DNA from: Polymorphum gilvum SL003B-26A1
Lineage (GTDB): Bacteria; Pseudomonadota; Alphaproteobacteria; Rhizobiales; Stappiaceae
DNA length: 64,000 bases
Direction: 5' to 3'
NCBI RefSeq assembly: GCF_000192745.1
Contig: NC_015259.1
Coordinates: 3,611,001-3,675,000, forward strand
Position 1 is the first letter of the stretch, and the number at the start of each line of letters is the position of its first letter. Below the pieces are notes generated by a model. That model saw nothing but the letters and a program-made list of their open reading frames with translations, was not told where the DNA came from and did not search any database. This document shows positions 24,638 to 28,386 of the stretch, piece by piece. Both the position numbers and the translations under genes were made by a program.

Positions 24638-25852
24638 CTATTCGGCGGCCGCGACCCGGGGCGCGGTTTCCCGAGCCGCGAAGTGCTTGGCGTTCAGCCG
24701 CAGCACCAGCCAGACCGAGGCGGCCTGGAGGACGAGCGCAACCGCGGTGATCGCCCAGTAGGCGGGCGAGAACTTGGCCAGCAGCCCGACCTCGACCAGG
24801 CCCTTGTTGAGGTAGAACTGCAGCAGCACGGACAGCGCGACGCCCGGGCAGACCAGGGCATAGGAGCCTGGGGACCGCAGGTCGCCCCAGACGTAGCGGG
24901 CGAAGTAGCCCAGTCGGCGCAGCACCACATAGCCGAACAGGCCGAACAGAACCTGGACCGCGACCATATTGGTCAGCATCGTGAAGCTCTCCGCGGCGCC
25001 GGCATGATCGGCGAAATGGACATGCAAGCCGTGCGACTGGCGCAGCATGGCGATCGACAGCACGGTCATGATCGGGATGGCGACCCACAGCGTCGGCGCG
25101 GCCTCCTCGTTGGCGCCGTGTTCCATCATCGAGCGGAAGCCCAGGAACAGGGCGACCGCGCCGAGGATGACCGCCGACACCATGAAGAAGCTGGAGGCGA
25201 TGTAGCTTATGCCGGCGGTCAGCGGCGTGACGCTCATCGAGGCAGGGGCCGACAGGCCGACGGCGACCATCGACAGCGCGAAGGCCGGCAGCATTTGGGA
25301 GAAACTGTTGTTGCGCGCGCAGTCGAAGCCGCCCTTGGTCAGCACGCGGCCAAAGAAGTCACCGAGCAGGAGGAAGGCGTAGCCCCCGACCGCAAGGAAG
25401 GCGACCATTGCCAGCGGGAACAGGTATTCGACGACGCTCCACAGGCGCGGCACGAACACGAGACCGAGGATGAAGCCGACGTTGATGGCCATGGCCAGCG
25501 TCAGCGGAACGGCAAGCAGTTGGGTCTCGGCGTTGCCGGAGCGCAATGCCGAGTAGGCGACCGTGCGGCGGAACCCGGCATATTCGCGCAGATTCCAGAT
25601 CAGCAGCCGGATGTGCAGGACGGCGAAGAACGCGATGCCGGCATAGGCCAGGCCGATCATCGCCTTCACGCCCAGGCCGCCGGCCGCAAAGGCAGCCGCG
25701 ATGTCCTCGAACACCGGCACGCTCTGTCCCGGATGCGGTATCCAGAACATCAGGTAGAGAAAGAAGGTCACTGCAAGTCCGCCGGCGCCCAGCGCGGCGA
25801 GGAAATAGAGCGGCGTGTAACGCTCGCTCATTGCGGGCAATCGAAACGGCAT
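24638..25852 (-). CDS. Polytopic membrane protein of unknown function (possibly TsoY-like)
   Basis: 404 residues from the ATG at 25852 (GAGG with a 7-nt spacer). About ten hydrophobic helices with short polar loops. Distinctive segments: FLYLMFWIPHPGQSVPVFED near 31-50, GFDCARNNSFSQMLPAFA with a lone conserved-looking C178, GLSAPASMSVTPLTAG, and LRQSHGLHVHFADHAG. I tentatively place it in the TsoY '(seleno)protein' family, in which I recall a Cys or selenocysteine in a similar place; this is from memory and uncertain. An FNR-type box lies about 64 bp upstream of the start, suggesting induction at low oxygen. Divergent from bfr. Confidence 0.6.
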   Translation of the reverse strand: MPFRLPAMSERYTPLYFLAALGAGGLAVTFFLYLMFWIPHPGQSVPVFEDIAAAFAAGGLGVKAMIGLAYAGIAFFAVLHIRLLIWNLREYAGFRRTVAYSALRSGNAETQLLAVPLTLAMAINVGFILGLVFVPRLWSVVEYLFPLAMVAFLAVGGYAFLLLGDFFGRVLTKGGFDCARNNSFSQMLPAFALSMVAVGLSAPASMSVTPLTAGISYIASSFFMVSAVILGAVALFLGFRSMMEHGANEEAAPTLWVAIPIMTVLSIAMLRQSHGLHVHFADHAGAAESFTMLTNMVAVQVLFGLFGYVVLRRLGYFARYVWGDLRSPGSYALVCPGVALSVLLQFYLNKGLVEVGLLAKFSPAYWAITAVALVLQAASVWLVLRLNAKHFAARETAPRVAAAE

Positions 25853-25880
25853 GACAACACCTCATTGATTTCATTTTATT

Positions 25881-25923
25881 GAATATAATAGACGCGGAGC
25901 CGCCGCCAAATGATATCGATCAA
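25881..25923 (-). promoter_or_regulatory. FNR/FixK-type box with -10 element before the membrane protein
   Basis: ATGAT-ATCG-ATCAA at 25910-25923 is one mismatch from the consensus TTGAT-N4-ATCAA. On the minus strand TATTAT (25890-25885) is a plausible -10, putting the box centre about 38-42 bp upstream of the start of transcription, as in FNR-activated promoters. It may also act on bfr on the other side. Confidence 0.55.
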
Positions 25924-26026
25924 GCTTGGTGCGGTGCGACGCCGCAGCCGTGCAGGGGACATCTCCGACACCGAGAAAAGGCGCGGATATCCACGCCTTC
26001 GCCGATCTGCCTCTGGACGAAGAACG

Positions 26027-26039
26027 TAGAATCATTCTA
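26027..26039. promoter_or_regulatory. Irr-type iron control element upstream of bacterioferritin
   Basis: Perfect palindrome TAGAAT-C-ATTCTA, extended by AA on the right. It fits the TTAGAA-N3-TTCTAA pattern of rhizobial ICE motifs bound by Irr. It lies 68-80 bp before the bfr start. Irr represses bfr under iron limitation in relatives (family knowledge). Confidence 0.6.
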
Positions 26040-26106
26040 AACTACTATCAAAGTTTCCATCCTGGGCTCATCAAAAACCCATCCCAAGCAGTGAGCGAGA
26101 CGCGCA

Positions 26107-26592
26107 ATGAAAGGCAATCAGAAGGTCATCGACCGGCTCAACGAAGCCCTGTTCCTCGAACTCGGGGCGATCAACCAGTACTGGCTGCACTACCGCCTTC
26201 TGGACGACTGGGGTTATACGCGCCTGGCCAAGAAGGAGCGTGCCGAATCGATCGAGGAGATGGAGCACGCCGACAAGATCACGTCGCGCATCATCTTCCT
26301 GGAAGGTCACCCGAACATGCAGAAGCTCGCCCCGCTGCGGATCGGCCAGAACATCAAGGAAGTGCTGGAATGCGACCTGGCGGGCGAATATGACGCGCGC
26401 GCGTCCTATTCCAAGTCGCGCGAGATCTGCCGCGAGGAAGGCGACTACGTCTCCATGCACCTGTTCGAGGAGCTGCTGGAGGACGAGGAAGGCCACATCG
26501 ACTTCCTCGAAACCCAGCTCGAACTGCTGGACAAGATCGGCGTCGAACGCTACGGCCTACTTCAGGCCGCGCCCGCCAACGAAGTCGAATAA
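26107..26592 (+). CDS. bfr: Bacterioferritin
   Basis: 161 residues, four-helix ferritin fold. The ferroxidase ligands E18, E51 and H54 are present, with E94 and E127/H130 equivalents in [11 protein letters not shown] and [15 protein letters not shown]52 is in the position of the heme-binding methionine. Forms a 24-subunit iron-storage shell that oxidises Fe(II). Single gene, divergent from the membrane protein; an Irr-like palindrome and an FNR-like box upstream suggest dual control by iron and oxygen. No ferredoxin gene (bfd) is adjacent. Confidence 0.96.
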
Positions 26593-26625
26593 TCAGACAA
26601 GCACGAACCCCATCCCACCATCGAA

Positions 26626-26648
26626 ACGCGCGGTCGCAAGCCGCGCGT
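26626..26648 (+). terminator. Hairpin after bacterioferritin
   Basis: 8-bp stem ACGCGCGG/CCGCGCGT with a 7-nt loop, 34 bp after the bfr stop. There is no T tract, so terminator function is uncertain. Confidence 0.35.
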
Positions 26649-26671
26649 CAGCTTGTTGACAAACTTGCAGC

Positions 26672-26803
26672 CTCTCCGGTGTCCCTCCGGCCAAGCGGAG
26701 CGCGAGCCAGAACCGGAGAGTCACGGTCAACGATTTCAATAAAGTGACCGGGAGGCCCCGGCTCACCGATCCCGCATCTGCGCTTCTCTGCGTACGGGAT
26801 GAC
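26672..26803 (-). repeat. Dispersed palindromic intergenic repeat, copy A
   Basis: On the minus strand it begins GTCATCCCG and CGGGATCGG, with palindromic arms around GCAGAGAAGCGCAG (26766-26803). A second hairpin CTCTCCGG/CCGGAGAG ends near 26672. The same order of blocks appears in copy B at 35979-36075. It fills most of the bfr/amn intergenic space. No protein is supported here. Confidence 0.55.
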
Positions 26804-26877
26804 GCGTTTAGAGGGGGGGTCAGCAGTCTGACGGCGGCCAGGACCGTGCGTTTTCCTGCCTGCTCCGGCGGCCCCAC

Positions 26878-28386
26878 TCACTGGAACGCCGTTTCGGCGA
26901 AACTCCTCAGCTTGCGCGAATGCAGCCGCTCGTGCGGCATGGCGCGCAGCTTCTCCATCGCCCTGATACCGATCTCCAGGTGCTGGCCGACCTGCCGCTT
27001 GTAGAAGTCGGTCGCCATGCCGGGCAGCTTGAGTTCGCCGTGCAGCGGCTTGTCAGAGACGCACAGCAGGGTGCCGTAGGGCACGCGGAAGCGGAAGCCG
27101 TTAGCAGCGATCGTTGCCGATTCCATGTCGAGCGCGATGGCGCGCGACTGCGAGAATCGCTGCACCAGGCCGCGCTGGTCCCACAGTTCCCAGTTGCGGT
27201 TGTCGATCGAGGCGACCGTTCCGGTGCGCATGACCCGCTTGAGATCGTAGCCGTCCAGGCCGGTCACTTCCGCGACCGCGTCCTCCAGCGCCACCTGGAC
27301 TTCGGCCAGCGGCGGGATCGGCACCCAGGTCGGCAGGTCCTGGTTCAGCACGTTGTCCTCGCGCACGTAGCCATGGGCGAGCACGTAGTCGCCGAGCGTC
27401 TGGCTGTTCCTCAGCCCCGCGCAATGGCCGAGCATCAGCCAGGCATGCGGGCGCAGGACCGCGATGTGGTCGGTGATGGTCTTGGCGTTCGACGGTCCGA
27501 CACCGATGTTGACCAGCGTAATGCCGCTGCTGTCCGCACGCTTGAGATGGTAGGCCGGCATCTGCGGCAGCTTGGCCGGCGCCGTACCCGAGATGGGCGC
27601 CGCCGCACCTGCCGGCGTGACGACGTTGCCGGGCGTGACGAAGGCCTCGTAGCCGATCGCCGGGCCGGCCAGCACGGATTCGGCCAAGCGGCAGAACTCG
27701 TCGATGTAGAACTGATAATTGGTGAACAGCACGTAGTTCTGGAAATGCTCGGCGGCGGTCGCCGTGTAATGCTGCAGGCGGTGCAGCGAATAGTCGACCC
27801 TGGGTGCGGTGAACGGCGCCAGCGGCATGATGCCGTCGACCGGCTCGTAGGTGCCGTTGGCGATGGCATCGTCCATGAGCGTCAGGTCTGGAAGGTCGAA
27901 CGTATCGGCGAGCGGACGGTCGAGGCTCGCCGCCGCCGCCCCTTCCACATGGGTGCCGTCGTAAAAGGCGAAATGCAGCGGGATCGGCGTGTCGCTGTCG
28001 CCGATCAGGACCGGTACGTCGTGGTTGCGCATCAGAAGCGACAGCTGCTCGGTGTAGTAGCGACGGAACAGGTCCGGCCTCGTGACCGTCGCGGCATGAA
28101 TGCCAGGGCCGGAGACGAAACCGTAGGCAAGGCGGCTGTCGAGCCGGGCGTGGCTTTCGGTCACCAGCCGGATCTGGGGATAGAAGGCCCTGATCCGGCC
28201 CTCTGGAGGACGGCCGTCGACCAGGTTCTGGAATGCCTCGCGGATGAATGCGGTGTTGCGCTCAAACAAGCCGATCAGGCGCTCCACCGCCTTGTCGGCA
28301 TCGCGGAACGGCTCGAGCGAAGCGGCGGGAGCCAGGGTAACGGCGCGTGGGGCGGCAAAGGGATTCGGGCGGGAATAGTCGATCAA
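26878..28386 (-). CDS. amn: AMP nucleosidase
   Basis: 502 residues from a TTG at 28386, chosen because AAGGAG lies 7 nt upstream; the protein then starts MIDYSRPNPFAAP. Hydrolyses AMP to adenine and ribose 5-phosphate. N-terminal AMP nucleosidase domain (about 15-190, with VSGPGIHAATVTRPDLF and DSDTPIPLHFAF) followed by a phosphorylase-like domain (TLVNIGVGPSNAKTITDHIA, ALDMESATIAANGF, LLCVSDKPLHGELKLPGMA). Length matches the family. Purine salvage role; no partner gene nearby. Confidence 0.96.
   Translation of the reverse strand: MIDYSRPNPFAAPRAVTLAPAASLEPFRDADKAVERLIGLFERNTAFIREAFQNLVDGRPPEGRIRAFYPQIRLVTESHARLDSRLAYGFVSGPGIHAATVTRPDLFRRYYTEQLSLLMRNHDVPVLIGDSDTPIPLHFAFYDGTHVEGAAAASLDRPLADTFDLPDLTLMDDAIANGTYEPVDGIMPLAPFTAPRVDYSLHRLQHYTATAAEHFQNYVLFTNYQFYIDEFCRLAESVLAGPAIGYEAFVTPGNVVTPAGAAAPISGTAPAKLPQMPAYHLKRADSSGITLVNIGVGPSNAKTITDHIAVLRPHAWLMLGHCAGLRNSQTLGDYVLAHGYVREDNVLNQDLPTWVPIPPLAEVQVALEDAVAEVTGLDGYDLKRVMRTGTVASIDNRNWELWDQRGLVQRFSQSRAIALDMESATIAANGFRFRVPYGTLLCVSDKPLHGELKLPGMATDFYKRQVGQHLEIGIRAMEKLRAMPHERLHSRKLRSFAETAFQ

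Follow-up and report, generated by a model that had tools for sequence, protein, structure and literature searches.

In Bradyrhizobium japonicum, the regulator Irr represses both bfr and mbfA and binds the two promoters tightly, and swapping the iron control element (ICE) of bfr lowers the affinity of Irr (PMC4902296). Irr of this organism is degraded by way of a haem regulatory motif and is described as its only global iron regulator (PMC7762939). A second point of comparison is the Irr/RirA network of Rhizobium leguminosarum and Agrobacterium tumefaciens, and a third is mbfA of Rhodobacter sphaeroides, where an ICE is found at an iron-handling gene and an RNA 5' end lies within the box; boxes are predicted there only at mbfA and ccpA and not at bfr (PMC3413700). 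Below, we describe a palindrome 5' of the bacterioferritin gene bfr of Polymorphum gilvum SL003B-26A1, in a stretch of 64,000 nucleotides (nt) that is referred to as the window and numbered from its first letter (contig NC_015259.1, positions 3,611,001 to 3,675,000). It is very probably a functional Irr box (ICE) that overlaps the core promoter of bfr; binding of Irr, repression and the part played by haem are predicted. The locus resembles the Irr-repressed bfr of B. japonicum (bll6680) in the gene itself, in the type of box in its promoter region and in the possession of an Irr gene, and it resembles the Irr/RirA network in having both regulators, an ICE-like site before rirA and an HxH motif in Irr.

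The palindrome, TAGAATCATTCTA (TAGAAT-C-ATTCTA), occupies positions 26027-26039, is perfect over its 13 bp and ends 67 nt 5' of the bfr start. Taken alone it says little, because perfect 6-1-6 palindromes are common (there are 36 in the window), and the weight rests on its fit to the ICE consensus. A scan of the window with TAGAATNATTCTA, allowing up to two mismatches, found this site only, and found it with none; 0.17 matches are expected at that level, and at least one was obtained in 17 of 100 shuffles. Extended to the 17-mer CGTAGAATCATTCTAAA, the site agrees at 12 of 14 defined positions with TTTAGAANNNTTCTAAA, which we take to be the consensus of the Irr box. When the 254-nt gap between bfr and its divergent neighbour tsoY is modelled as a first-order Markov chain, the probability of agreement at 12 or more positions is 0.0007, and that at 11 or more is 0.007. 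The preliminary description of this DNA had read the sequence in the same way, as an exact palindrome of the rhizobial ICE type. A TTG-started open reading frame (ORF) that runs across the palindrome (25926-26393) was not taken as a gene: it has no match in Pfam or NCBIfam, and alignment columns next to the box show no conservation.

Conservation of the site was followed in the family to which P. gilvum is assigned (f1, here labelled 'Stappiaceae'; NCBI files Polymorphum under Paracoccaceae). DNA upstream of bfr was taken from 84 of the 87 family genomes, that of P. gilvum included (G010, G052 and G086 were left out), and genomes outside the family that came from the genome-wide bfr search do not enter this count. 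The lengths scanned for an ICE were 250 nt for the 84 genomes, 300 nt for a set of 80 named loci, 200 nt for mbfA and 300 nt for suf. A site with at least 11 of 14 positions is present 5' of bfr in 78 of the 84 genomes, representing six of the seven genera, so that the site is conserved in the family. Its position relative to bfr varies between -41 and -157, in flanking DNA that has diverged; when the 78 sites are aligned on the ICE, positions beyond the box and its promoter elements are poorly conserved. In the named set, which overlaps the family set and whose relatives include loci of Roseibium, Pannonibacter and Stappia with Bfr 79-93% identical, 25 of the 80 loci have the site. A chance palindrome without function might be expected among so many of the 6-1-6 type in the window, but one retained in 78 genomes at such varied distances, amid diverged surroundings, is barely conceivable.

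The same alignment indicates where the bfr promoter is likely to lie. Of the 78 sites, 43 have an exact CTGGAC at an offset of -12, -11 or -10 relative to the 17-mer; no other offset from -40 to +9 has it in more than three. The right arm of the box, TTCTA, is invariant (78/78), the left arm is variable (TTAGAA-like or TTGGAA-like), and a T occurs two bases past the 17-mer in 62 of the 78. Read as -35-like and -10-like elements (Table 1), these features are 16-19 nt apart, depending on the hexamers chosen. A simple sigma-70 scan of 25700-26900 did not report a bfr promoter, and we infer its position by comparison among sites many of which come from close relatives. Since the right arm of the ICE would lie within or across the -10 region, repression of bfr by occlusion is predicted; a box over the start region has been held to fit repression (PMC3413700). 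That Irr might instead activate bfr from the box is highly improbable, given that the box overlaps the putative -10 region, not a position upstream of the -35 element, and that Irr represses bfr in Bradyrhizobium.

The regulator itself is present. The genome searched comprises 4,718,963 bases in two contigs, the larger of 4,649,365 bases, and encodes three proteins of the Fur family (L016, L017 and L018). L017 is Irr, with NCBIfam scores of 226.3 bits for IrrA (cut-off 150) and 213.8 bits for Irr (cut-off 170), and a strong Irr match (best E 7e-54 or better) is found in all 87 family genomes. Inspection of its sequence by eye revealed no haem regulatory motif of the GCPW type; in this respect, and in having RirA as well, P. 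gilvum is unlike B. japonicum. The sequence does contain HDHHH, also read by eye, which is consistent with the haem motif HxH described for Irr (PMC7762939). L018 is Zur-like and falls under the cut-off of its best NCBIfam model. L016 is Fur-like (PF01475, 133 bits) and falls under the NCBIfam Fur cut-off, and an Rrf2 protein in L008 narrowly passes that for RirA (193.5 bits against 193). The existence of these last two proteins allows it to be argued that one of them binds the box in place of Irr; we give this little credence, however, because the sequence agrees with the ICE consensus, and because further close matches stand at mbfA and suf, which are genes reported as Irr targets elsewhere.

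With Irr as the ligand of the box, the following switch may be envisaged. Under a shortage of iron and haem, Irr without haem would bind the box, cover the -10 region and shut off bfr, which would keep the little iron available out of storage. With ample iron, haem would load onto Irr and the bfr promoter would be freed. Release is more likely to come about through loss of DNA affinity, as in R. leguminosarum, than through degradation, because the genome has RirA and its Irr carries the HxH motif.

A scan of the genome for the motif near other iron genes had been proposed in the preliminary description. Searching with TTAGAANNNTTCTAA at up to two mismatches gave 21 sites, eight of them with no more than one; the reversed pattern gave 24, all with exactly two mismatches and thus none in the closer class. 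Four of the eight close sites are located at bfr, at mbfA (NF045676, 580 bits; cut-off 450), at the suf operon and at an imelysin gene (PF09375, 312 bits). The suf site precedes a NifS-like cysteine desulfurase gene (312 bits, under its cut-off) that comes first in a co-oriented run with sufB, sufC, sufD and sufS, and it also precedes a divergent hydrolase-like ORF recognized by eye. All 30 suf loci, namely that of P. gilvum and those of 29 relatives, have a site that agrees at 11 or more of 14 positions, as opposed to 0 of 30 for the reversed control; one further genome, G004, has no desulfurase locus. An ICE-like site with two mismatches ends 43 nt before rirA, and in Brucella the binding of Irr at rirA has been observed by gel shift (PMC10374146). 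The remaining four close sites (L003, L005, L007 and L008) were not counted as iron sites. That in L005 is inside an ORF, that in L008 is without a recognized close downstream gene, and that in L007 precedes the gene of a solute-binding protein with no assigned substrate. The one in L003 (1501-1515, one mismatch) lies approximately 120 nt before a gene of the YcaO family (PF02624), for which a link with Irr would be unexpected. It should also be noted that the cysteine desulfurase matches of four genomes of genus g6 (L263-L266) show an in-frame TGA in the search output, and two of them also a TAG.

Several observations weigh against the assignment of the palindrome to Irr. Six of the 84 genomes lack the site (G006, G012, G018, G029, G045 and G072). 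The first three are all the examined members of genus g7. There the gene that was found has a bfd-like frame directly 5' of it, like the second bfr of P. gilvum, and is therefore probably the other paralogue. The misses in G029, G045 and G072 are not accounted for in this manner. Of the 61 named loci that we place outside the family, mostly from rhizobia and their relatives, only six have the site, a respect in which the likeness to the Rhizobium and Agrobacterium network fails. When as many as two mismatches are allowed, ICE-like sites are not in excess in the genome (21, compared with 24 matches to the reversed pattern). The mbfA gene is present in 15 of 31 genomes (a partial second match, L236, being left aside), and its site reaches 11 of 14 in only three of the 15 loci, that of P. 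gilvum included, compared with two of 15 for the reversed control. Finally, Irr of R. sphaeroides has a minor role in the iron-dependent expression of mbfA (PMC3413700). As a separate observation, in G045, and likewise in G072 (the pair L104/L111), CTGGAC is kept and a different small palindrome comes right after it, with no ICE before bfr.

The preliminary description had gone further and combined the palindrome with an FNR-like box, ATGATATCGATCAA, placed 104 bp away, in a compact iron/oxygen control region of bfr. The box exists, with 103 bases between it and the palindrome, and FNR-like boxes with at most one mismatch number three in the window against 0.51 expected, a count reached in none of 100 shuffles. 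Its position, however, points to the other gene. The sole sigma-70-like match in 25700-26900 (25909-25882, minus strand) reads toward tsoY, and the FNR-like box abuts its -35 element, at approximately -41 of the estimated tsoY start and approximately -133 of the inferred bfr start. Twenty of the 87 family genomes have tsoY, and a box of at least 9/10 is within 250 nt of it in four of the 20 (G000, G007, G056 and G055, the last with a shuffle P of 0.06), so that the box is not widely conserved even there; G014, G024 and G051 have tsoY and bfr as neighbours with no box of that quality. Within 300 nt of bfr, such a box occurs in only two of the 84 genomes, in both cases next to tsoY. In G007, an ORF recognized by eye separates tsoY from bfr, and the FNR-like box remains close to tsoY and is 862 nt away from the ICE. 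Joint action of the two sites on bfr can appeal to their sharing one 254-nt gap and to G056, which also has both, with an FNR-like box of 10/10; nevertheless, the box tracks tsoY and not bfr, and we consider joint control very unlikely. Hence, the Irr part of the preliminary description, with its Irr gene and conserved site, stands, and shared iron/oxygen control of bfr is rejected. We assign the FNR-like box to the divergent tsoY, which is a neighbour outside the Irr switch.

Another feature of the tsoY side is TTTC-N8-GAAT at 25869-25884, which overlaps the putative tsoY promoter and is one base off the site ATTC-N8-GAAT quoted for SqrR (PMC9774250). The relaxed form [AT]TTC-N8-GAA[TA] is found within 200 nt of tsoY in six of the 20 genomes with this gene, and the exact form in two, which suggests that tsoY may be under sulfide-responsive control. 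It is very doubtful, although it can be pictured, that the 254-nt gap serves as a shared strip in which Irr (iron), an FNR-like protein (oxygen) and an SqrR-like protein (sulfide) each affect both genes, and then only where the two are neighbours.

Table 1. Features of the tsoY-bfr region, in window coordinates.
Feature	Position	Strand	Remarks
ICE / Irr box, 17-mer CGTAGAATCATTCTAAA	26025..26041	+	Core is the palindrome 26027-26039; 12/14 consensus positions
-35-like element CTGGAC of bfr promoter, inferred	26013..26018	+	Recurring offset from the 17-mer
-10-like region, TCTAAA or TAAACT, inferred	26036..26043	+	Overlaps right arm of ICE
bfr, bacterioferritin, 161 aa	26107..26592	+	TIGR00754, 193.2 bits (cut-off 125.55); PF00210, 117 bits
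FNR-like box ATGATATCGATCAA	25910..25923	-	9/10 defined positions; assigned to tsoY promoter
tsoY, TsoY-family protein, divergent from bfr	24638..25852	-	NF047644 TsoY_fam, 538 bits (cut-off 150)

The genome has a second bacterioferritin gene, whose product is 73% identical to that of bfr (L129, 850-1595). It lies behind a bfd-like ORF, which was recognized by eye and has no NCBIfam match, and no ICE was found there, the best scores being 9/14 upstream of the bfd-like ORF and 7/14 upstream of the gene.

Among the papers listed by a literature search on Irr or the ICE in the genera of the family, none mentioned Irr, from which absence from print is not claimed. The arrangement described here is already known from related bacteria, and P. 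gilvum is a further case of it. The existing picture of Irr is unchanged by these observations. Their significance is that the known control of iron storage by Irr would extend to the Stappiaceae, on comparative evidence from 84 genomes, and that the predicted switch is set apart from a nearby FNR-like box, which we attribute to a different gene.
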